64,000 nt of DNA from Saccharothrix violaceirubra (GTDB lineage: Bacteria > Actinomycetota > Actinomycetes > Mycobacteriales > Pseudonocardiaceae). The stretch lies in the NCBI RefSeq assembly GCF_014203755.1, contig NZ_JACHJS010000001.1:3968001-4032000 (forward strand). Reading direction: 5' to 3'. The notes under the pieces were generated by a model that was given only the letters and a program-made list of their open reading frames with translations, was not told the DNA's origin and ran no database searches. A program made the translations under genes and the position numbers. Below, one piece after another: positions 2,365 to 13,357 of this stretch (position 1 is its first letter; each line of letters starts with the position of its first letter).

Positions 2365-2510
2365 GCCCGGTGTTAGCCTGCCTCGGCTCCTACAACTCCA
2401 TAGCCACCACCCTGACGGGGAAGCCGGTCGGAATCCGGCACTGTCGCGCAACCGTGGGTCGTCCCGCCTGAAAGTGGGACGACGAGTCGGGTCGCCGTCG
2501 GGTGGTCGAC
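2365..2510 (+). promoter_or_regulatory. Cobalamin (B12) riboswitch controlling the ECF operon
   Basis: The conserved core of a cobalamin riboswitch is readable: GACGGGGAAGCCGGT at 2414-2428, GAATCCGGCACTGTCGCGCA at 2431-2450, and CAACCGTG just after. It is followed by a variable hairpin (GTCCC...GGGAC, 2461-2480) and the B12-box-like GAGTCGGG near 2484. The end of the element is about 40 nt from the start codon at 2550, so control could be by masking the ribosome-binding site. In this class, adenosyl- or hydroxocobalamin binding lowers expression, so the operon should be on when B12 is scarce. Exact borders are estimates; the class is clear. Confidence 0.93.
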
Positions 2511-2549
2511 TGTCCAACCACTGTCGCGGAAGCAGGGGTGACGTTCGAC

Positions 2550-4952
2550 ATGCCTTGTCGAGCCTTGGTGTCCGGAGGCCGGTCCCTGACCGCTCTCCTC
2601 TGCGTCGTCGGCCTCCTCTCGGGTGCGACGGGGGTCGCGTCGGCGACCCTCGACGACGCCGCCGCCAACTCCCGGTGGCTCGCCGCGCGACTGTCCCCCG
2701 ACGGCACGCTGGAGAACCCGCTCGGCGGCGCGTTGCCCGACCACGGGCTCATGATCGACGTGTTGTTCGCGTTGACCGCGTCCGGGGAGCGCGCCCGCGC
2801 CGAGCCGATCGTCGGCTACCTCGACGGGCACGCCAAGGACTACTTCACGTGGGACGGGTTGGCGCCGGGCAGCGGTTTCGACGCGATCATCGTCGGCGGC
2901 GCGACGGCGAAGGTGCTCGTCGCCGCCCAGGTCGCGGGGCGCGATCCCCGGGCGTTCGGCGGGTACGACATGGTCGCCGAGACCCTCGCGACGATCCGCC
3001 GTTCGGGACCGGACATCGGGCGGATCAGCGACTACACCAAGAACCCCGACTTCGCGGACTTCATCGGCAACAACGCCAACGTCTTCGGGCAGGCGCTCGG
3101 CGTGGTCGGCCTGGCCGCCGCCGGTGCGAGCGACCGGCCGGCGATCGACAAGCTCGTGACGCAGCAGTGCGCCGAGGGCTACTTCCGGATCTTCTTCGCG
3201 CTGGTCCCGACCGACGAGACCGGCGACCACGTCACGCCGGACGGGCACAAGGTGTCCAGTTGCGACGAGGGCAAGGCGTTCGGCGTCTCCCCTCCGGACG
3301 GGGACGCCACGGCCATGGGCCTGTCCGCGCTGCTGGCCGCGCGGGCGACCGGCGAGCCGGGCCTGGACGAGCCGGTCTCGCGCGCGGTGGAGTGGTTGCG
3401 CGCCAACCAGAAGCCCGACGGCGGCTGGGGCGGCGGTGTGGGCACGGAGGCGGCCAACACCAACAGCACCGGGCTCGCGGTGCAGGCACTGGCGGCGGCC
3501 GGCGGCGCCGACGCGGCCGTGGTCGCCGGGACGGCGTTCCTGAAGTCCGCGCAGGTGTCCGCGGCCGATCCTGGCCCCGCGCTGACCGACCAGGTCGGCG
3601 CGATCGCCTACACCCCGGCCGACTACCAGGCCGCGCGCACGGGCGGCATCGTCGGCGTCGACACGTGGATCAGGGCCGGCGCGCAGGCGTCGCTGGGCTT
3701 GTCGCGGGTGTCGTTCCTGGACCTGGCCCTCGGCCGGCGGCCGAGCGACCCGCCGCCGGTCACCGCGTCACCGACCGTGCCGGCGCCTCCCCCGGCCCCG
3801 CCCAGGGCACCCGCGCCGGTCACCGTGATCCGCACGGCCGCACCGGCTCCGGTGGCCGCCGCGCCGCCCGCTACCCGGCCCGACACCGTCACCGGACGGC
3901 TGGCCGCCTACCTCGCCGGCGGGCTCGTCGGCGGCGACCACGTCGAGGTCGAGCAGGACGGCGGCCGGTTCGTCGACTACGACGCCACGGCCGACGTCGT
4001 GCTCGCCCTGCGGACGTTGGGCGGCCAGGACGAGGCCGTGGCCAGGGCGTCACGCTTCCTGCTGCGGCCGGAGTCGATCCGGGCCTACGCCCACGGCGAG
4101 CCCTACGAGACCGGTTCCGCCTATGCCGAGCCGCTGGCCAAGCTCTCGATCGTCGCCCGGTTCCTGCGTGCGGACGGCGCCCGTGACGTCGACGGCGTCG
4201 TGGACGAGACGACCCGGTCCCTGGCCACACGGGTGCGGGACGGGGATGTGGTCGACACCGGGGCCAACGGCACGCCGGACACCACGCGTCGGGCGTGGGG
4301 CATCACGGCCCGCACGGCGGCCGGGGCGGACGCTTCGGACGCACGCCGCGAACTCGCCGAAAGCCAGTGCGCGGACGGCCTCTTCCCTGTCGAACAACAC
4401 GGAAAGCCTTGTGCGAAGGGCGATCTCCGGGCGACTTCGGTCGCGGCCGTGGCGCTGAACTCCGGTCCGGAACCGTCGGCCGAGGTGACCGTCGCGCTCG
4501 TCCGCGCGGCCAAGGCGCTCACCGCGCGCACCGGTGACGACGGCCTGGTGGCCGGTCCCGACCGGCGACCCGACCTCGCGCTGAGCGCGGCGGCGGCGAG
4601 CGGCCGGCAGGCCGCCGGGCTGGACGCGAGCGACACCGCGCGGGCGTTGGCGCTGTTCGCCCGCGAGGACGGTGGTTTCGCGGCGGAACCCGGCGGGCCG
4701 TCCGACTTCGCCACCAGTCTCGCCGCCGCGCCGGGCGTCGCGGGCCGGTCGTGGACCGCGGTCGCCGGGGCGCCGGTGACACCGGCGCTGCGCCTCCCTC
4801 TCGACGAGGGCGGGGCCCGCGCGACCGTGCCCGTCGCCCAGGCCCTGCCGGTCTGGTTCCCGCCCGGCTTCGCCGCGTTCGCCCTGCTCGTCGCGGTCGG
4901 CTTCGGCCTGCGCCGGGCGGTAGTCCGCCGACAGGGGCGGGTCGCGTCGTGA
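2550..4952 (+). CDS. Membrane-anchored surface protein with two alpha/alpha-barrel (prenyltransferase-like) domains, putative B12-capture protein
   Basis: An 800-residue exported protein. The ATG at 2550 gives a signal peptide ending at TGVASA; a GTG at 2502 in the same frame lies within the riboswitch and is less likely. Residues about 30-400 form one prenyltransferase/squalene-cyclase-like alpha/alpha-barrel domain with the repeat helices GATAKVLVAAQVAGRDP, NANVFGQALGVVGLAAAG and NTNSTGLAVQALAAAGG. A Pro/Ala-rich linker (about 410-450) leads to a second, more diverged barrel (about 450-760) that repeats the QCADGLF and CAKGDLRATSVAAVAL motifs. The C-terminus has a hydrophobic helix (VWFPPGFAAFALLVAVGFGL) and a basic tail, a membrane anchor. 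Animal intrinsic factor and transcobalamin bind B12 with the same alpha6-alpha6 fold. First gene after the riboswitch and upstream of an ECF importer, so B12 capture is inferred. Confidence 0.85.
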   Translation: MPCRALVSGGRSLTALLCVVGLLSGATGVASATLDDAAANSRWLAARLSPDGTLENPLGGALPDHGLMIDVLFALTASGERARAEPIVGYLDGHAKDYFTWDGLAPGSGFDAIIVGGATAKVLVAAQVAGRDPRAFGGYDMVAETLATIRRSGPDIGRISDYTKNPDFADFIGNNANVFGQALGVVGLAAAGASDRPAIDKLVTQQCAEGYFRIFFALVPTDETGDHVTPDGHKVSSCDEGKAFGVSPPDGDATAMGLSALLAARATGEPGLDEPVSRAVEWLRANQKPDGGWGGGVGTEAANTNSTGLAVQALAAAGGADAAVVAGTAFLKSAQVSAADPGPALTDQVGAIAYTPADYQAARTGGIVGVDTWIRAGAQASLGLSRVSFLDLALGRRPSDPPPVTASPTVPAPPPAPPRAPAPVTVIRTAAPAPVAAAPPATRPDTVTGRLAAYLAGGLVGGDHVEVEQDGGRFVDYDATADVVLALRTLGGQDEAVARASRFLLRPESIRAYAHGEPYETGSAYAEPLAKLSIVARFLRADGARDVDGVVDETTRSLATRVRDGDVVDTGANGTPDTTRRAWGITARTAAGADASDARRELAESQCADGLFPVEQHGKPCAKGDLRATSVAAVALNSGPEPSAEVTVALVRAAKALTARTGDDGLVAGPDRRPDLALSAAAASGRQAAGLDASDTARALALFAREDGGFAAEPGGPSDFATSLAAAPGVAGRSWTAVAGAPVTPALRLPLDEGGARATVPVAQALPVWFPPGFAAFALLVAVGFGLRRAVVRRQGRVAS

Positions 4953-5145
4953 GAGGAGCCCGCAGTGGCACAAGCACCTCGATGAGCCGGACAGCCCACG
5001 CCGGCGGCACGGCGTCGAGGGGTCGGACCCCGCAGCGACACAGCGACAAAAGGACCCCGGAGCACGAACGGGCAACCACGTCCTCCCAAGCCCGTCCGGC
5101 AACCGACCACCCACCGGCACAACCAGCACCATCGGGGGTAGCACC

Positions 5146-6000
5146 ATGAGAAGAGTCCTGACCTTGCTCGCCACCGTCGTCGTGGCCGGCGTCGCGTTCG
5201 CGGCGCCCGCGTCGGCGATCGATCCGACCAAGGGCTACAACGGCATCTGCACCGGCGCCGACGCGCTGACCGGCGTCACGGTGGTGATCGACTTCCAGGA
5301 GCTGGACGGCAACGGCGGCACACCCGCGCCGACGATCACCCGCTGCTCCCCCAACCCGGTGCCCGGCAGCCAGCGCACGGGCATCAAGGCGTTGCAGGAC
5401 GCGGGCATCGCGGTGGCGGGCACCGCCCAGTGGGGTCTCGGGTTCGTGTGCCGGTTGGAGGGCCGCCCGGCGATCACCGAGACGCTGCCGCGCAACTCCC
5501 AGCCCACGTACAAGGAGGCGTGCGTCGTCACGCCGCCCGCCGACGCGTACTGGGGGTACTGGCACGCACCGGGCTCCGGCACGACCTGGACCTACAGCAG
5601 CTACGGCGCGGCCAACCGCAACGTGACGCCCGGCGGGTTCGAGGGCTGGTCGTTCTCGCTCAACAAAACCGCCTCCACCAACCCGGTGCCGGGCGTCACG
5701 CCGACCAACCCGGCCGTGAACTCCAACGCGCCCAGCGTGGGGCTGAGCATCGACGACGTCGACCGCAAGATCACCCTCGGCACGTCGACCTCGCTGACCT
5801 GGACGTCCACCCACTCGACCACGATCACCGCGCACGCCGTCTCGCCCGCGACCGGCGGCGGTTCCTGGTCGGGGGCGCTGGCCGTGCCCGGCGGCACGAA
5901 GACGATCACGCCGACGGCCAAGGGCACCTACACGTACACGATCAAGGCGGTCGGCACCGGGGGCACGGTGTACTCGACGGCCACGCTGACGGTCCAGTGA
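5146..6000 (+). CDS. Secreted transcobalamin beta-like (DUF4430-like) protein with C-terminal Ig-like domain
   Basis: A 284-residue secreted protein with a signal peptide ending ASA (MRRVLTLLATVVVAGVAF...). The mature N-terminal domain (about 25-180) has the strand GVTVVIDFQEL, a helix GIKALQDAGI, two conserved Cys regions (FVCRLEGRPA, YKEACV), then YWGYWHAPGS and GGFEGWSFSLN. The order strand, helix, strand, tryptophan-rich YW segment resembles the DUF4430 beta domain of transcobalamins, although the match is by pattern, not by search. Residues about 185-284 look like an Ig-like beta domain. Spaced 193 nt from the barrel gene, with GGGGGTA before the ATG. The next gene overlaps its stop codon and encodes a homologue. 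Likely role: covering or handing over cobalamin at the cell surface (inference). Confidence 0.78.
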   Translation: MRRVLTLLATVVVAGVAFAAPASAIDPTKGYNGICTGADALTGVTVVIDFQELDGNGGTPAPTITRCSPNPVPGSQRTGIKALQDAGIAVAGTAQWGLGFVCRLEGRPAITETLPRNSQPTYKEACVVTPPADAYWGYWHAPGSGTTWTYSSYGAANRNVTPGGFEGWSFSLNKTASTNPVPGVTPTNPAVNSNAPSVGLSIDDVDRKITLGTSTSLTWTSTHSTTITAHAVSPATGGGSWSGALAVPGGTKTITPTAKGTYTYTIKAVGTGGTVYSTATLTVQ

Positions 6001-6848
6001 TCCGACTCCTGTGCGCGGGCGCGGCGATGCTCCTCGTCGCCGCGCCCGCGCACGCCGTGGACCACTCGAAGGGCACCCCCGGGTTCTGCCCGACCGGCGA
6101 CGGCGTCACGGTCGTGGTCGACTTCCAGCAGCTCGGCGGGACCACGCTCGTGCGCTGTTTCCCCTCCACCGCACCGGGAACCGGCTTGGACGCGCTCAAG
6201 GGCGCGGGCTTCCAGATCGCCGGGGTGCAGCGCTGGGGCGAGGCGTTCGTGTGCCGCGTGGAGAACCGGCCCTCGGCGGTCGAGGAGGTCCCGATCGCCG
6301 GGGACGAGCACTACAAGGAGGCGTGCCTCGACACGCCGCCCGCCGCCGGGTACTGGTCCTACTGGCACGCGGGCAACAACTGCCCGTGGACCTACAGCCA
6401 GTGGGGCGTGAAGAACCGCGAGTTCGTGCCCGGCGGGTTCGAGGGCTGGTCGTTCTCGCTCAACGCCACCGCCGAGACCAACCCCGTGCCCCGGATCGCC
6501 CCCGTGCGGCCGGGCACCGAGGCCCGCGCGTGCGGCACGGCCGACGAACCGCCGCCGAACTCCGACGACGTCGAAGAGAAGCAGCGGCCCAAAGCACAGC
6601 CGGCGACCACCGCGGCACCGACCACGTCCGCGCCGTCCGGGTCCGCGTTGCCGCCGCCCAAGCCCCGCACCGCACCCGACCCCGCCGCCAACGTCGAGTT
6701 CGACGGCGGCGAGAACGCGCCGGACGTGGTCGCGGTCGTGAAGGAGCAGTCCGGCGCCTCCGACATCGCGCCGTGGGCCGCCGGCGGTGCCGTGGTGCTG
6801 CTCGCGGTCGCCGCGTACTTCACCGCACGCCGCCGGACGCGGAGATGA
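5997..6848 (+). CDS. Membrane-anchored transcobalamin beta-like protein, paralogue of the preceding gene
   Basis: A 283-residue protein beginning at the GTG that overlaps the previous stop (GTGA). The signal peptide is VIRLLCAGAAMLLVAAPAHA. The domain at about 25-165 is clearly homologous to the preceding protein: GVTVVVDFQQLGG, GLDALKGAGFQIAGVQRWGE, FVCRVENRPS, YKEACLDTPPAAGYWSYWHA and PGGFEGWSFSLN. Instead of an Ig-like domain it has a Pro/Thr/Ala-rich stretch and a C-terminal transmembrane helix (APWAAGGAVVLLAVAAYF) with a TARRRTRR stop-transfer tail. It is therefore held on the outer face of the membrane, as is the barrel protein. Translation is probably coupled to both neighbours. A role in B12 capture is inferred from riboswitch control and the neighbouring ECF genes. 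Confidence 0.8.
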   Translation: MIRLLCAGAAMLLVAAPAHAVDHSKGTPGFCPTGDGVTVVVDFQQLGGTTLVRCFPSTAPGTGLDALKGAGFQIAGVQRWGEAFVCRVENRPSAVEEVPIAGDEHYKEACLDTPPAAGYWSYWHAGNNCPWTYSQWGVKNREFVPGGFEGWSFSLNATAETNPVPRIAPVRPGTEARACGTADEPPPNSDDVEEKQRPKAQPATTAAPTTSAPSGSALPPPKPRTAPDPAANVEFDGGENAPDVVAVVKEQSGASDIAPWAAGGAVVLLAVAAYFTARRRTRR

Positions 6849-7927
6849 CCTGGCTGCTGCCCCGCGACCTGCACCCGGCCGCCTGGTGGGTGTGGGCGCT
6901 GGGCCTCGCGGTCGCGGCGAGCCGGACCACGAACCCGTTCCTGCTGCTGACCATCGTGGCGGTGGCCGGGTACGTGGTGGTGGCCCGGCGCACCGCGGCG
7001 CCCTGGGCGCTGGCGTTCCGGATGTACCTGGTGCTCGGCGCGGTGATCGTGGGCATGCGGGTGCTCTTCCGCCTGGTGTTCGGCGGCGCCGAGGGGTCGA
7101 CGGTCGTGCTGCGGCTGCCGGAGGTCCCGCTGCCCGCGTGGGCGGCGGGCATCCGGCTGTTCGGCGACGTGTCGGCCGAATCGCTGCTGGGCGGGTTCCA
7201 CGACGGGCTGCGGCTGGCGACCATGGTGGTGTGCCTGGGCGCGGCGAACGCGTTGGCGAACCCGAAACGGCTGCTCAAGGCGTTGCCGCCGGCGCTGTAC
7301 GAGATCGGGACGGCGGTGGTCGTGGCCCTGTCGGTGTTCCCGCAGTTGGCCGAGAGCGTGGTCCGGGTGCGCCGCGCCCGACGGCTGCGCGGCGGCGACG
7401 GCAGGCGTTTCCGGGCCCTGCGCGCGATCGTGGTGCCCGTGCTCGCCGACGCGTTGGACCGGTCGTTGCGGCTGGCGGCGTCGATGGACTCGCGCGGGTA
7501 CGGCCGGGCCGCGCTGGTCGAGACCGGCGACCGGGTGGCGACCGGGCTGTTGATGATCACCGGTCTGCTCGGCGTGTGCGTCGGCGTCTACGCCACCCTG
7601 GACGGGTCGACGCCGCGCTACCTGGCCGGGCCGGTACTGGTGTCGGGACTGGTCGTGGCGCTGGTCGGGTTCCGGTCCGCCGGTCGCCGGGTGCGACGGA
7701 CCCGGTACCGGCCGGACCGGTGGCGGGCCGCCGAGGTCGTGGTCGCGGCGAGCGGGGTCGCGGTGGCCGCCGTGCTGTTCGCGACGTCCACTGTGGACCC
7801 GACGAACCTGAACCCGTCGCTGGTCGTGCTGTCCTGGCCGACGCTGTCGTGGCCGCCGCTGATCGGCGTGCTGGTGGGCGTGCTGCCCGCGGTCCTGTCC
7901 CCCGCACCGGCCTTCGAGGACGCATGA
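6845..7927 (+). CDS. ECF transporter transmembrane (T) component, CbiQ/EcfT family
   Basis: A 360-residue integral membrane protein starting at an ATG that overlaps the previous stop (ATGA). It has hydrophobic helices at the N-terminus, a cytosolic region with the coupling segment RRARRLRGGDGRRF, and the family signature SMDSRGYGR, the Ala/Ser-x-x-x-Arg-Gly motif that docks the ATPases. Further helices follow at the C-terminus. EcfT proteins link the substrate-binding S component to the ATPase pair. Riboswitch control and the adjacent S gene make cobalamin the likely substrate, as predicted for the actinobacterial CbrTUV group. It is longer than a typical T component (about 260), with extra C-terminal helices. 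Confidence 0.9.
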   Translation: MTWLLPRDLHPAAWWVWALGLAVAASRTTNPFLLLTIVAVAGYVVVARRTAAPWALAFRMYLVLGAVIVGMRVLFRLVFGGAEGSTVVLRLPEVPLPAWAAGIRLFGDVSAESLLGGFHDGLRLATMVVCLGAANALANPKRLLKALPPALYEIGTAVVVALSVFPQLAESVVRVRRARRLRGGDGRRFRALRAIVVPVLADALDRSLRLAASMDSRGYGRAALVETGDRVATGLLMITGLLGVCVGVYATLDGSTPRYLAGPVLVSGLVVALVGFRSAGRRVRRTRYRPDRWRAAEVVVAASGVAVAAVLFATSTVDPTNLNPSLVVLSWPTLSWPPLIGVLVGVLPAVLSPAPAFEDA

Positions 7928-9510
7928 TCGAGTTCGACCGGGTCGGCTTCCGGTACCACGGCGCGCACGAGCCCGTGTTCGCCGACGTGACGTTGTCCAT
8001 CGGCGAGGGCGAACTGGTGCTGCTCGCGGGCCGCACCGGAGCGGGCAAGTCCACGCTGCTCGGCGCGGTCAACGGCCTGGTGCCGCACTTCACCGGCGGG
8101 CACCTGGACGGCACGGTGACGGTCGCCGGCGTGTCGACCCGCGACCACCCGCCACGCGAGTTCGCCCACCTCGTCGGCGTCGTCGGCCAGGACCCGCTCG
8201 CCGGGTTCGTGACCGACACCGTGGAGGAGGAACTGGCCTACGGCATGGAACAGCTCGGCCTGGCGCCGCAGGTGATGCGCCGCCGCGTCGAGGAGGCGCT
8301 GGACCTGCTGGGCATCGCGGACCTGCGACGACGGGCGTTGCGGACGCTGTCCGGCGGGCAGCAGCAACGCGTGGCGATCGGGTCGGTGCTCACGACCCAC
8401 CCGTCGGTGCTCGTGCTGGACGAGCCGACGTCCGCGCTGGACCCGACCGCCGCCGAGGAGGTGCTGGCCACGCTTGCCCGCCTGGTGCAGGACCTGGGCA
8501 CCACCGTGGTGCTGGCCGAGCACCGGATGGAACGCGTGGTGCCGTTCGCCGACCGGATGCTGTACGTGCTGGGCGACGGGTCCGTTGTGGACGGTCCGCC
8601 CGCCGAGGTGCTCGCGGGCACGGCTATCGCGCCGCCGATCGTGGAGCTGGGACGGCTGGCCGGGTGGAGCCCGTTGCCGCTGTCCGTGCGCGACGCCCGC
8701 CGGGTCGCCGGTCCGCTGCGCGGCCGGTTGCCGTCGGCACCCCGGCGTCCCACGCCTGCCCGGACGCCGCTGCTCACCGCGTCGGGCGTGGTCGTGCGCT
8801 ACGGACCGGTGGTGGCCGTGCGCGGCGTGGACCTCGACCTGGGCCCCGGAGTGCTGGCGCTCATGGGCCGCAACGGGTCGGGCAAGTCGTCGCTGCTGTG
8901 GGCGTTGCAGGGCTCGGGCCCCCGCCAGGGCGGCACCGTGCGGGTGGGCGGGGCGGACCCGAAGGCGTTGTCCGCCAAGCGGGCCCGCGCGCTCGTCGGG
9001 CTCGTGCCGCAGAGCGCGGGCGACCTGCTCTACCTGGACACGGTGGACGCCGAGTGCGCGGCCTCCGACACCGAGTCCGGGGCACCCGTCGGACGCTGCC
9101 GTGCGCTGCTGGAAGGCCTCGCGCCGGACGTCCCCGGCGATCGGCACCCGCGCGACCTGTCGGAGGGGCAACGGCTCGCGCTCGTGCTGGCCGTACAACT
9201 GACCGCCGCGCCGGGTGTGGTCCTGCTCGACGAGCCGACGCGGGGGCTGGACTACCTGGCCAAGGCCGCGCTCGCGCGGATGATCGCGTCGCTCACCGCG
9301 CAGGGGCGGGCGGTGGTCGTGGCGACGCACGACGTGGAGTTCGTGGCCACCGTCGCCGACCGGGTCGTGGTGCTGGCGGAAGGGGAGATCGTGTCGGACG
9401 GGCCGACGGGCGAGGTGCTGGGCTCCTCGCCCGCGTTCGCCCCGCAGGTGGCGAAGGTCCTGGGCGACGGGTGGCTCACGGTCGCGGACGTCGCGGAGGC
9501 GCTGTCGTGA
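7924..9510 (+). CDS. ECF transporter ATPase, two ABC domains fused in one chain
   Basis: A 528-residue protein with two complete ABC ATPase domains. Domain 1 (about 1-235) has Walker A GRTGAGKS at 36-43, signature LSGGQQQR and Walker B VLVLDEPTSALDP. Domain 2 (about 280-528) has GRNGSGKS at 315-322, a less usual signature LSEGQRLA and VVLLDEPTRGLD. Two-domain fused ATPases are common in actinobacterial ECF transporters and replace the EcfA1/EcfA2 pair. The ATG overlaps the stop of the T gene (ATGA). It powers import through the T and S components encoded on either side. Confidence 0.94.
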   Translation: MIEFDRVGFRYHGAHEPVFADVTLSIGEGELVLLAGRTGAGKSTLLGAVNGLVPHFTGGHLDGTVTVAGVSTRDHPPREFAHLVGVVGQDPLAGFVTDTVEEELAYGMEQLGLAPQVMRRRVEEALDLLGIADLRRRALRTLSGGQQQRVAIGSVLTTHPSVLVLDEPTSALDPTAAEEVLATLARLVQDLGTTVVLAEHRMERVVPFADRMLYVLGDGSVVDGPPAEVLAGTAIAPPIVELGRLAGWSPLPLSVRDARRVAGPLRGRLPSAPRRPTPARTPLLTASGVVVRYGPVVAVRGVDLDLGPGVLALMGRNGSGKSSLLWALQGSGPRQGGTVRVGGADPKALSAKRARALVGLVPQSAGDLLYLDTVDAECAASDTESGAPVGRCRALLEGLAPDVPGDRHPRDLSEGQRLALVLAVQLTAAPGVVLLDEPTRGLDYLAKAALARMIASLTAQGRAVVVATHDVEFVATVADRVVVLAEGEIVSDGPTGEVLGSSPAFAPQVAKVLGDGWLTVADVAEALS

Positions 9511-10349
9511 TGCGGATCGGGGTGCGGTCGGCGACGGTGCTCGCGCCGGCGTCGGCGGCCGGGCTGATGATGTTCGTATGGCCGTTGCTCGTCCGCGTGG
9601 AACCGCAGTCCATGCAGCACGGCCCGGACGCGCCGTTCGTGTTCATCGGCATCCTGCCGGTGCTGATCGTCGTGGTGCTGGCCGAGTTGTCCGAGGGCGG
9701 GATGGACTCGAAGGCGTTGGCATTGCTGGGAGTCCTGTCGGCGGTGAACGCGGCGCTGCGGCCGTTGGGCGCGGGCACGGCCGGGATCGAGACGGTGTTC
9801 TTCCTGCTGGTGCTGTCGGGTCGGGTGTTCGGCGCCGGGTTCGGGTTCGTGCTCGGGTGCACGTCGTTGTTCGCGTCCGCGCTGCTGACCGCCGGGGTCG
9901 GGCCGTGGCTGCCGTTCCAGATGATGTGCTCGGCGTGGATCGGGATGGGCGCGGGCCTGCTGCCCCGGCGGGTCACGGGCAGGGCCGAGATCGCGATGCT
10001 CGTGGGGTACGGGATCGTGGTCGCGTACCTGTTCGGGTTCCTGATGAACCTGTGGTTCTGGCCGTTCATCACCGGTGCCGAGGTGCCTTATCACGACGGC
10101 CACATCTCTTACGTGCCAGGCGATCCCGTGGGGGAGAACCTGCACCGGTTCGCGGTGTTCACGCTGCTGACGTCCACGGCCGGGTGGGACACCGGGCGGG
10201 CGATCACGAACACGGTCGCGATCCTCCTCCTGGGCCCGGCGGTGCTGGCGACGTTGCGCCGCGCGTCGCGGCGGGCATCGTTCGGGGTGCTGCCGACGTT
10301 CGGGAGCGGCGACCTGCCGGCCGCCGCTCCCCACCTCACGCGCAGGTAA
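9510..10349 (+). CDS. cbrT: ECF transporter S component, putative cobalamin-specific (CbrT-like)
   Basis: A 279-residue membrane protein with about six to seven hydrophobic helices, including SAAGLMMFVWPLL, FIGILPVLIVVVLAELS, GIETVFFLLVLSGRVFG and YGIVVAYLFGFLMNLWFWPF. The family pattern FGFVLGCTSLFASALLTAG, WLPFQMMCSAWIGMGAGLLP is typical of ECF S components of this type. The ATG at 9510 shares its A with the stop of the ATPase gene; a GTG one codon earlier is possible. The substrate assignment comes from the upstream cobalamin riboswitch and from the known association of this operon form with B12 (CbrT), so the symbol is by context. The last 14 bp overlap the 3' end of the convergent secreted barrel gene. 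Confidence 0.82.
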   Translation: MRIGVRSATVLAPASAAGLMMFVWPLLVRVEPQSMQHGPDAPFVFIGILPVLIVVVLAELSEGGMDSKALALLGVLSAVNAALRPLGAGTAGIETVFFLLVLSGRVFGAGFGFVLGCTSLFASALLTAGVGPWLPFQMMCSAWIGMGAGLLPRRVTGRAEIAMLVGYGIVVAYLFGFLMNLWFWPFITGAEVPYHDGHISYVPGDPVGENLHRFAVFTLLTSTAGWDTGRAITNTVAILLLGPAVLATLRRASRRASFGVLPTFGSGDLPAAAPHLTRR

Positions 10350-11340
10350 GTACCGGCGCGTCGTTGCGTCCACCGCTGTGCAGGTCGGCGAGCCCGACCC
10401 CGGCCAGGCCGAGGATCGCCTGGGCGGTCGCCCGGGTCGCGGTCGCCGGGTCGAACCCGGTGGCCTGGTAGGCGATCGCGCCCCGGTTCCCGACGGGTCC
10501 GGCGCAGCCGACCTGGAGGCCCTTGAGGAACTGCCGGGCCTTGACCGCGGCGACGGGCCGGTGGCCCTTGAGCGCCTGTGCCGCGAGCCCGGTGCTGTTG
10601 GCGTTGGAGTCGTTCGTGCCGACCGCGAATCCGCCGTCGGCGCGCTGCACGCTCACCAGCCAGGACAGACCCTGCCCGGCCTTGAGCGGACGGCCGACCG
10701 CGCGCAGGGCCTGCGCGACCATGGCCGTGGAGTCCACGTCGCTCACGCAGGGCGTGACGCCGAAGAACAGCGGGAAGCCGCCGTCCGGGCACTGCGTGCC
10801 GACCAGGAAGTCCACGGCGGTCGTCGGTGCGCCGGCGCTCGTGCGGTCCAGGGCCAGCAGCGCCAGGGACTGTGTGAACGCGTTGCTGTAGTCGCCCCAC
10901 GCCGACTGGTCGGAGAACCGGCCCGACGGCGTGAGCAGGGCGAGCAGCCCGGCCTCGAGGTCGACGCCGCCGAAGGCGGCCGGGTCGCGCCCGGTCACCC
11001 GGGCGGCGAGCAGGAGCTTGGCGTGCGGGCCCGCGTACGCCTCGCCGCCGGAGCCCACGTAGCCCGTGGTGATCTCCGGACGGGCCAGCCAGTCGATCGC
11101 GTCGTCCGCGTAGTCGTCCGCGGCCCGCGCGGCGGCGAACGCGAAGACCGCGTCGATCGTCAGCCCCTGGTCCGGGTAGGCGACACCGTCGTAGACGGTC
11201 TCGAAGCGTTCACCGTCGACGAGTTGCCGGGCCAGCCACCCGGCCGCCGCGTCCGCCGGGTCGTGCGTCGCCGACGCGACAGGGGTGACGAAGAGGGTCG
11301 ACGCGCACAGGAGTGCGACGACGCCGAGCATGCGTCTCAT
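10336..11340 (-). CDS. Secreted single-domain alpha/alpha-barrel protein, putative soluble B12 binder
   Basis: A 334-residue exported protein, homologous to the first barrel of the protein at 2550-4952. The start at 11340 is chosen because GGAAAGGAT precedes it and it gives a clean signal peptide (MRRMLGVVALLCASTLF...ASA). Shared motifs include AKLLLAARVTGRDPAAFGG, SNAFTQSLALLALD, TQCPDGGFPLFFG, DVDSTAMVAQALRAVG, NANSTGLAAQAL and GAIAYQATGFDPA. There is no membrane anchor, lipobox or sorting signal, so it should be released. A second cobalamin riboswitch lies directly upstream on the same strand. It converges on the ECF operon and overlaps the end of the S-component gene by 14 bp. A role in scavenging cobalamin or a precursor is inferred. 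Confidence 0.85.
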   Translation of the reverse strand: MRRMLGVVALLCASTLFVTPVASATHDPADAAAGWLARQLVDGERFETVYDGVAYPDQGLTIDAVFAFAAARAADDYADDAIDWLARPEITTGYVGSGGEAYAGPHAKLLLAARVTGRDPAAFGGVDLEAGLLALLTPSGRFSDQSAWGDYSNAFTQSLALLALDRTSAGAPTTAVDFLVGTQCPDGGFPLFFGVTPCVSDVDSTAMVAQALRAVGRPLKAGQGLSWLVSVQRADGGFAVGTNDSNANSTGLAAQALKGHRPVAAVKARQFLKGLQVGCAGPVGNRGAIAYQATGFDPATATRATAQAILGLAGVGLADLHSGGRNDAPVLTCA

Positions 11341-11354
11341 GGCAGATCCTTTCC

Positions 11355-11510
11355 CGCTCACCACGACAGGAGTTGATCGGCGCGGAGCGGGTGGTCGGGC
11401 TCGCCTTGCGGCACACCGTTGCGGGTCAGCGCCGGATTCCCACCGGACTTCCCCCGCGACCGCGCGTGTTCGGTTGTCCCGCACAGCCTGCCACCGGCGG
11501 GCGTGGCGTC
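11355..11510 (-). promoter_or_regulatory. Second cobalamin riboswitch, minus strand
   Basis: Read on the minus strand, the region contains GGGGAAGTCCGGTGGGAATC and CCGGCGCTGACCCGCAACGG (about 11456-11416), the core of a cobalamin riboswitch, followed by the B12-box-like GCGAGCCCGACCACC (about 11404-11388). It sits immediately upstream of the secreted barrel gene that starts at 11340, whose ribosome-binding site is within about 20 nt of the element. This shows that the soluble barrel protein is in the same B12 regulon as the ECF operon. Borders are approximate. Confidence 0.93.
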
Positions 11511-11681: not shown

Positions 11682-12752
11682 TCAGCGCTTCACCAGCTCC
11701 AGCACCCGGTCGACCGGCAGCCCCGGCGACCGACGCCCGTTCCGACCCGTCATGGGGCCGGCCGCGACGAGGGCGTTGAGCACGGCCTCCTCGACCGCCT
11801 GGACCACGGCCGTGAAGAAGTCGTCGATCCGGTTCCACGGGATGTGGCGCAACGTGTCGTAGCCGGGCTCGCCGCGCGGGAAGTCCGACGGGGACAAGGC
11901 GTTCCCCGTGGAAAACGCCAGGAAGATGTCGCCCGAGAAGTGGGAGCCCGCGGTGCCCGTGCGGGCCAGACCCAGGGGCACACGGCGGGCGAGGGCCGAG
12001 CACTGGCCGGGCAGCAAAGGCGCGTCCGTGGCCACCACGACGATCACCGACCCGGCACCCGGCGGCACCGACCAGTCGCCGTCGGCCATCGGGTTGTCGT
12101 CGGCCAGCGCTTCGCCCAAAGGCACGCCGCAGACCGTGAGTTCCTCGCGCGAGCCGAAGTTCGCCTGGAGGAACACGCCGACGGTGTAGGTGTCGGAGCC
12201 GTACTCCACCACGCGGGACGACGTGCCGCTGCCACCCTTGTACGCGTAGCAGTTCATGCCCGTGCCGCCGCCGACCGACCCCTCCTCGACCGGACCCGAC
12301 GACGCCGCGTCGATGGCCGCCACGGCGTGCTCCGGCCGGATGTGCGGGCCGTTGATGTCGTTGAGGTAGCCGTCCCACGTCTCGGCGACCACGGGCAGCA
12401 GCCACTGGTCGGCCACGGCCGGGTGCTCGCGGGCCACCCAGTCGATCACGCCGCGGTGGCACGGGCCGATCGCGTGCGTGTTGGTGATCAGCACGGGCAG
12501 CCGCAGCGCGCCGATCTCGTCCAGCAGCGCCGAGCCGGTCATCTCCCCGTTGCCGTTCAACGAGTACCGCCCGGCCGCGCACGGCACGTGCACGTCGGCC
12601 TTGCCGCGCGGCAGGATCGCGGTCACGCCGGTGCGCACCGAGTCGCCCTCGATCAGCGTGGTGTAGCCGACCTCGACGCCGGGCACGTCGGTGATCGCGT
12701 TGAGCGGTCCGGTCTCGCCGGGCAGCCGCAGGCCGAGTTCGCGTGCGCGCAT
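11682..12752 (-). CDS. P1-family (S58, DmpA-like) self-processing peptidase
   Basis: A 356-residue cytoplasmic enzyme of the P1/DmpA group, N-terminal nucleophile hydrolases that cut themselves and then release N-terminal residues from peptides, amides or beta-amino acids. Family landmarks are ITDVPGVEVGYTTL near the N-terminus, TNTHAIGPCHRGVIDW, EGSVGGGTGMNCYAYKGGSG and YTVGVFLQANFGSRE; the Gly-Ser in NFGSRE is the expected self-cleavage site with Ser as nucleophile. The late motif VVVATDAPLLPGQCSALARR is also conserved. Its start codon overlaps the stop of the upstream TetR gene (ATGA), so the two are one operon. The beta-aminopeptidase activity known in the family would fit the neighbouring beta-alanine-type genes, but that is inference. 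Confidence 0.9.
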   Translation of the reverse strand: MRARELGLRLPGETGPLNAITDVPGVEVGYTTLIEGDSVRTGVTAILPRGKADVHVPCAAGRYSLNGNGEMTGSALLDEIGALRLPVLITNTHAIGPCHRGVIDWVAREHPAVADQWLLPVVAETWDGYLNDINGPHIRPEHAVAAIDAASSGPVEEGSVGGGTGMNCYAYKGGSGTSSRVVEYGSDTYTVGVFLQANFGSREELTVCGVPLGEALADDNPMADGDWSVPPGAGSVIVVVATDAPLLPGQCSALARRVPLGLARTGTAGSHFSGDIFLAFSTGNALSPSDFPRGEPGYDTLRHIPWNRIDDFFTAVVQAVEEAVLNALVAAGPMTGRNGRRSPGLPVDRVLELVKR

Positions 12753-13357
12753 CAGGTCTCCAGTTCGCAACGGGTGGCGTCGGCCGCGTAGGCGACGAGC
12801 ATCGCCTCGGCCTGCTCGGTGGTGAACGTCGGCACGGCCTGCGTGATGTGCAGGCCGAGGCCGTCTTCCAGGGCGACGAGACCGCGGGCGATCGTCGTCG
12901 TGTCGCGGACCGGGTCGAACAGCCCGGTCGCGGTGCCGGCCTCCAGGATCGCGGTGTAGAGCGCGACCTGGCGCTCGTACAGCCGGATGTGCTCGGCGGC
13001 GTAGGCGGGGTCGCGGCGGGCGTACGCGCCGAGTTCGTAGATCAGCACGCACAGTTCGTCGTCCTGCCCGGTCGGCAGGCCCGCCCTGATCGTCACGACC
13101 AGCTTCCGCCGCGGGTCGGGCTCGGCGCGGGCCGCTTCCTCGCGGTCCACGCAGAACCGTTCGACGGCTTCGCGCTGCACCTCGTACAGCAGGTCGCCCA
13201 ACGTCGGGAAGTAGTACAGCACCGATCCCGTCGACATGTCGGCCTGCTCGGCGACGTCGCGCAGTCGCAGGTCGAGCACTCCCCGTTCGAGGACGGCCTG
13301 TCGGGCGGCGGTGATGAGTTCACCGCGCTTGAGGTGGGCGCGGCTCGGTCGTGGCAT
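12752..13357 (-). CDS. TetR-family regulator (BetI-like C-terminus)
   Basis: A 201-residue regulator. The N-terminal helix-turn-helix reads LRLRDVAEQADMSTGSVLYYFPTLGDLLYEV (about 29-60), the TetR consensus with LYYYF-type recognition helix. The ligand domain (IYELGAYARRDP...GLVALEDGLGLHI) resembles the BetI/TetR_C_6 type. It is divergent from the APC permease at 13488 and cotranscribed with the peptidase. The 130-bp divergent gap contains a perfect inverted repeat and a further half-site that are probably its operator, so it likely represses itself, the peptidase and the permease. Confidence 0.9.
   Translation of the reverse strand: MPRPSRAHLKRGELITAARQAVLERGVLDLRLRDVAEQADMSTGSVLYYFPTLGDLLYEVQREAVERFCVDREEAARAEPDPRRKLVVTIRAGLPTGQDDELCVLIYELGAYARRDPAYAAEHIRLYERQVALYTAILEAGTATGLFDPVRDTTTIARGLVALEDGLGLHITQAVPTFTTEQAEAMLVAYAADATRCELET

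Follow-up and report, generated by a model that had tools for sequence, protein, structure and literature searches.

A likely split and duplicated transcobalamin-type B12 clamp encoded beside an energy-coupling factor importer in Saccharothrix violaceirubra

Analysis of a 64-kb stretch of DNA (the window) from the 7.35 Mb, single-contig genome of the actinobacterium Saccharothrix violaceirubra revealed a gene cluster at 2392-11479 that likely encodes a split, duplicated bacterial transcobalamin (TC) feeding an energy-coupling factor (ECF) importer. By analogy with TC, extracellular clamping of B12 probably precedes its import. Support for this reading comes from predicted structure, a chain of profile matches leading from the beta proteins via DUF4430 to TC, natural fusions, conserved gene order, and riboswitches. 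The cluster starts with a riboswitch and a toroid-beta-ECF operon on the plus strand, followed by a convergent toroid gene on the minus strand with its own riboswitch, and the nearest relatives of the window proteins were found in Umezawaea, Actinosynnema, Saccharothrix, Amycolatopsis, and Lentzea. The features are:

2392-2545, plus strand: adenosylcobalamin (AdoCbl)/cobalamin riboswitch 1, the leader element of the toroid-beta-ECF operon (RF01482 AdoCbl, 49.6 bits, E 6.9e-7)
2550-4952, plus strand: C-terminally anchored exported protein of 800 amino acids with two alpha/alpha toroids (A2 profile, hydropathy)
4869-4925, plus strand: predicted C-terminal membrane helix of the 800-residue protein (19-mer from residue 774, mean hydropathy 1.88)
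5146-6000, plus strand: secreted beta protein, 284 amino acids (E 3.1e-79 to the A1 beta-protein profile of 97 rows, one of which is this protein; no C-terminal hydrophobic stretch)
5997-6848, plus strand: anchored beta protein, 283 amino acids (beta-grasp at about 25-160, low-complexity stalk, C-terminal helix)
6765-6821, plus strand: C-terminal membrane helix predicted for the anchored beta protein (19-mer from residue 257; model helix 258-282)
6845-7927, plus strand: EcfT, CbiQ-like transmembrane component, T (PF02361, 47 bits, cut-off 25)
7924-9510, plus strand: fused EcfA-EcfA' ATPases, A-A' (PF00005 over two stretches, E 7.6e-46)
9507-10349, plus strand: EcfS substrate-specific component, S (PF07155, E 6e-4, below cut-off)
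10336-11340, minus strand: secreted single-toroid protein, 334 amino acids (AlphaFold model with a mean predicted local distance difference test score, pLDDT, of 94.5; N-terminal hydrophobic stretch, no anchor)
11369-11479, minus strand: cobalamin riboswitch 2, the leader element of the gene for the secreted toroid (RF00174, 30.2 bits, E 1.3e-4)

All four exported proteins displayed an N-terminal hydrophobic stretch, and a C-terminal stretch was limited to those at 2550-4952 and 5997-6848, as called from hydropathy rather than from a signal-peptide program. This agreed with a preliminary description of the locus, made from the sequence, in which two of the four were anchored and two released; its two riboswitches, its two toroids in the 800-residue chain, its operon overlaps, and its lack of a BtuF-type binding protein were likewise recovered. 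Successive operon genes overlap by a few bases from 5997 onward and are therefore probably translated jointly. No BtuF-type (PF01497) gene was present within the cluster, and the six PF01497 genes elsewhere in the genome were all farther than 100 kb from any of the seven riboswitch sites identified.

The predicted structure of the beta proteins contains a TC-type beta-grasp domain with a hairpin following the helix. In the secreted beta protein the TC-beta-like domain is followed by a C-terminal tail that appears immunoglobulin-like by eye and sits where an anchor would be. Cysteines at residues 31, 54, 86, 110, and 129 of the anchored protein were near-invariant in the A1 profile (four in 97 of 97 rows, one in 96), which suggests disulfides. 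Profile comparison by hhalign related the beta family to DUF4430 (39 diverse beta rows, 37 used, against 21 DUF4430 domains) with a probability of 86 and E 4.9e-6, the alignment being colinear from the helix through the last strand; the best of 60 column-shuffled controls gave 0.013 and the reversed control 0.78. DUF4430 in turn matched the beta domain of three mammalian TC sequences (E 7.5e-8; best of 30 shuffles 0.0088), consistent with the C-terminal DUF4430 domain described for TCN proteins (PMC4350170). When the beta family was compared with TC beta directly, the match (E 0.16) fell short of significance, the best shuffle of 30 reaching 0.037, and by sequence the two appear related via DUF4430 only. 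As a correction to the earlier characterization of both proteins as DUF4430-like, neither is a Pfam DUF4430 match: PF14478 did not match either protein at E up to 1 or any protein of the host genome at E up to 0.001, and Pfam searches with five relatives of the beta proteins returned nothing useful. The accession PF28005 is given for some relatives. Sequence searches of the PDB with the beta profile did not match TC, and a search with one DUF4430 domain gave short ankyrin matches and no TC among the best 60 of 166 matches. The entry 3u7z is one that we take to be a DUF4430 protein.

The A2 profile matched three stretches of the 800-residue chain, 13-219, 250-401, and 427-642 (E between 1e-21 and 1e-23 for each), with a residual match at 680-739 (E 0.033), delimiting toroids at about 13-401 and 427-743 of which the second has a degenerate end. 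This chain also carries a weak hydrophobic stretch at residue 112 (mean 1.64). The single-toroid protein adopts the alpha/alpha toroid fold in its AlphaFold model, and a structural comparison by Foldseek, as proposed in the preliminary description, returned TC among the matches (E 2.6e-5) with cyclases ranking above it. TC residues D176 and N224, presumably corrin-contacting, aligned to D203 and N246 of the bacterial toroid; each was kept in 89/89 aligned toroids and, in a wider set, in 94 of 148 (D203) and 93 of 117 (N246). The TC stretch N224-x-x-S-T-x-L-A-x-Q aligned with the bacterial toroids as well. The position of the TC cobalt ligand His173 is S200 in the bacterial toroid and Ser in 85/89 toroids; a His ligand is also reported as missing from intrinsic factor and haptocorrin of most species (PMC11107200). 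By sequence, neither the toroid profile nor one toroid-beta fused relative matched TC in the PDB, and PF01122 reached at best E 0.0011 and 18.4 bits (cut-off 25) on two fused relatives.

Related loci in other genomes (L-numbers) were surveyed. Among 62 named loci, the beta gene was accompanied by a toroid, T, A-A', and S in 41, whereas seven had T, A-A', and S without a toroid, seven a toroid without an ECF gene, three an incomplete ECF set, and four (L125, L129, L130, and L140) neither toroid nor ECF genes. In a sample of 246 genomes of the phylum, the beta profile identified 16 stretches, with S in 13, a toroid in 12, and a cobalamin riboswitch above cut-off somewhere in seven. Toroid-then-beta fusions within one open reading frame (ORF) occurred in four of them (L034, L035, L036, and L043), and named relatives of such fusions, Euzebya and Nitriliruptor among them, bear repeats of the cell-wall-binding or S-layer kind. 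S was not found within L042, L043, and L047, of which L042 and L047 are short contigs, and in the L043 genome it was located about 12 kb away. A toroid was not found in L037, L039, L040, and L047. The first three of these stretches have the beta protein immediately upstream of a long ORF: L037:6608-9661(-) and L039:6617-9862(-), with 1018 and 1082 codons, each combine T, both ATPases, and S in one frame as an apparent one-chain ECF importer, and in L040:7037-10075(-), of 1013 codons, the ATPases and S share a frame without a T match.

Loci of the DUF4430 kind presented a comparable context. The order DUF4430-T-AA-S-toroid was identified in 5/16 DUF4430 stretches (L071-L073, L075, and L076), cobalamin-type riboswitches of up to 115.7 bits in 8/15 scanned (L078 was left out of the RNA scan), and both beta kinds in one cluster in L032 and L122. 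Large beta-propeller-like proteins were encoded beside DUF4430 genes at L073:6951-9491(+), L076:6759-9359(+), L063:6910-9000(-), and L070:10927-13083(-), based on PQQ_2 in the first three (L063 also with DUF4430) and on a weak propeller match in L070. Since Bacteroides BtuG is also a propeller, these are possibly a convergent third capture module.

The window S component was matched in 78 of the 246 genomes. The 82 S places examined were taken from 84 rows, leaving out two overlapping G032 rows, and this count also excludes two DUF4430 places whose genomes had no S match. A beta gene lay within 15 kb of S at 37 of the 82 places at first pass; 20 of the 45 negative places were fetched, and 17 of these had a beta gene, 13 also with a toroid. 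The initial A1 count of 17/246 genomes with a beta gene is thus an underestimate, and the S-based counts indicate that the S family and the clamp genes mostly co-occur. Beta or toroid genes were not detectable at S loci L151, L154 (cut by a contig end), and L164, which are possible clamp-free users of the same importer.

No Rfam match reached the gathering score in the window, and the two riboswitches were identified at relaxed thresholds just under their cut-offs of 50 (riboswitch 1) and 31.5 bits (riboswitch 2). Riboswitch 2 reached E 2.2e-5 in the whole-genome search, still under cut-off, and the remaining five relaxed-threshold rows in the window had E of at least 0.36. In 14 of the 62 named loci sampled for riboswitches, an above-cut-off cobalamin-type riboswitch lay on the same strand within 200 nucleotides 5' of the toroid match start in eight (L079, L084, L087, L096, L111, L114, L116, and L126) and none in L080, L099, L101, L104, L118, and L122; RF01482 scored 50.4 to 54.1 bits before the toroid genes of L087, L096, L111, and L114. 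Of the 39 pairs predicted in a five-sequence alignment of riboswitch 1, seven had changed at least once in both partners. A Shine-Dalgarno-like AGGGG (2534-2538) lies inside its last predicted hairpin, 11 nucleotides 5' of the ATG at 2550, and CAGGGG at this site is invariant across the alignment, which suggests that riboswitch 1 acts on translation. Past riboswitch 2, at 11685-13357 on the minus strand, genes for a peptidase of the S58 family and for a regulator of the TetR type displayed no visible B12 link.

Besides the two of the cluster, five more cobalamin riboswitches were identified in the genome, preceding CbtA, MetE, ribonucleotide reductase, CobN, and a run of a CobB/CobQ-type amidotransferase and corrin methylase; judged by predicted gene content, the host set appears to be an ordinary B12 regulon including synthesis genes. 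These riboswitch-linked genes (CobN, CobB/CobQ-type amidotransferase, corrin/porphyrin methylase, and CbtA, a subunit of a cobalt transporter) are compatible with an alternative in which the system salvages incomplete corrinoids or other cobamides such as cobinamide rather than finished cobalamin, as is the binding of cobinamide by the TC beta domain (PMC5599065) and by CbrT. As the riboswitches and the fold do not discriminate between the two and nothing specific indicates precursors, salvage was considered improbable, if the best placed of the alternatives.

The ECF set of the cluster is complete, with T above its PF02361 cut-off, two ATPase stretches, and S. PF12822 matched 30 of 46 aligned S relatives (best E 3.5e-12) and left the window S itself unmatched. 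The earlier proposal of a two-part clamp handing B12 to CbrT is well supported as a clamp beside an ECF importer, but S is at most a candidate CbrT: the S sequence matched no solved chain at E up to 10 and a 46-row S profile gave a single unrelated row (E 8), the presence of CbrT among these chains being unconfirmed. A cobalt importer of the CbiMNQO type would likewise combine a CbiQ-type T, ATPases, and a B12 riboswitch; T matches PF02361, "Cobalt transport protein", and cobalt transporters occur among cobalamin-riboswitch genes (PMC3766115). Against this, CbiM matched neither S nor any of the 45 relatives aligned with it, the families that they do match being PF07155 and PF12822, and the genome already has the riboswitch-linked CbtA. 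To our knowledge, no role exists for exported toroid or beta proteins in cobalt ECF systems, and this alternative is highly unlikely.

A further alternative draws on the structural ranking of the toroid, which is headed by terpene cyclases of class II and by (alpha/alpha)6 enzymes active on glycans: the toroids could be exported enzymes related to one of these groups, and only the beta proteins, or neither, would bind B12. This was judged very improbable, because the cyclase DXDD acid motif (positions 201-204) was found in 0/89 aligned toroids (DVDS, DGDA, and DLRA in the window), toroid and beta are fused in one chain in some relatives, and toroid genes lie directly behind cobalamin riboswitches.

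For the favored split TC, the riboswitch sequences and places are observed, and low cellular coenzyme B12 would be expected to permit expression from both. The anchored two-toroid chain and the released toroid would then provide alpha halves and the anchored and released beta proteins beta halves, with the beta domain binding the corrinoid first, the toroid covering it, and the corrinoid itself holding the halves together as in TC. Through its anchored partners, the clamp once loaded would stay at the membrane and hand the corrinoid on to S, through which T and A-A' would power inward movement. In TC the beta domain binds first and alpha closes over it, lone halves also binding (PMC11107200), and separately produced TC halves assemble once cobalamin is added (PMC5599065), so a split bacterial system requires no new chemistry. 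The presence of both an anchored and a released copy of each half suggests that capture takes place in the wall space and that clamps, once loaded, are held at the membrane. Animal carriers release B12 only through proteolysis (PMC11107200), and for this reason the bacterial clamp should be weaker than they are or be opened by the S component.

More tentatively, the system may be a ligand-gated split receptor in which free and anchored halves join only on a corrinoid and the released proteins serve as a "cobalophore". Only loaded cobalophore would then be kept at the membrane and offered to S, with empty halves diffusing on in search, and the double-toroid chain would hold two clamps per anchor; this reading is less likely than not.

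The functional idea of a B12-scavenging clamp is already known from Burroughs et al. (2007), who defined a TC-like clade spanning low-GC Gram-positives, planctomycetes, and some euryarchaea. Its members stand alone or are fused to toroids, with anchors, paralogues in pairs, and operons of the CbiO/CbiQ kind; the authors predicted that they scavenge B12, mostly in genomes without B12 synthesis, and traced the animal carriers back to this clade (PMC1796856). The window proteins share with that clade and PF14478 an exported or anchored beta-grasp, a second paralogue, and an operon with CbiO/CbiQ-type genes. They differ in falling under PF14478 detection, in having toroids on their own chains with two chains per half, and in a host that has B12-synthesis genes, usually lacking there; in the main text of that study "riboswitch" is absent and "actinobacteria" is used only for ComEA (PMC1796856). 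New here are therefore the sub-Pfam actinobacterial sequences, the separate toroids, the doubling of both halves, the control by riboswitches, and the synthesis genes of the host. No published experiment on a bacterial transcobalamin was recognizable from titles and abstract openings, and one outside the searched literature is possible.

Like TC, haptocorrin, and intrinsic factor, the system combines toroid and beta-grasp halves, with the toroid first in fused relatives; unlike these endocytosed carriers, its halves are on separate, partly membrane-anchored chains without the His cobalt ligand and are accompanied by riboswitches and an ECF pump. It resembles ECF-CbrT of Lactobacillus delbrueckii (PMC5997447) as an ECF importer without BtuF, cobalamin import being predicted for the window; the CbrT gene sits in an nrdJ-cbrS-cbrT-pduO cluster, whereas the window S is accompanied by four exported proteins. 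Surface B12 capture ahead of a transporter, as predicted here, is also known for Bacteroides BtuG, in contrast a seven-bladed propeller working with BtuB (PMC6143338). The NCBIfam families SCO2321_fam (NF053823) and SCO2322_fam (NF040672) comprise the same two protein kinds under names without a function, and the window proteins score far under their cut-offs (89, for the 800-residue protein, and 132.6 against 300 bits; 32 and 23.4 against 85).

The likely assignment would place a TC-type carrier, best known from animals, in many actinobacteria in the context of an importer and riboswitch, and suggests a candidate function for these two NCBIfam families. Its naturally split form would make domain closure on cobalamin approachable chain by chain, and the system may represent a B12 capture route for Gram-positives without a linked BtuF.
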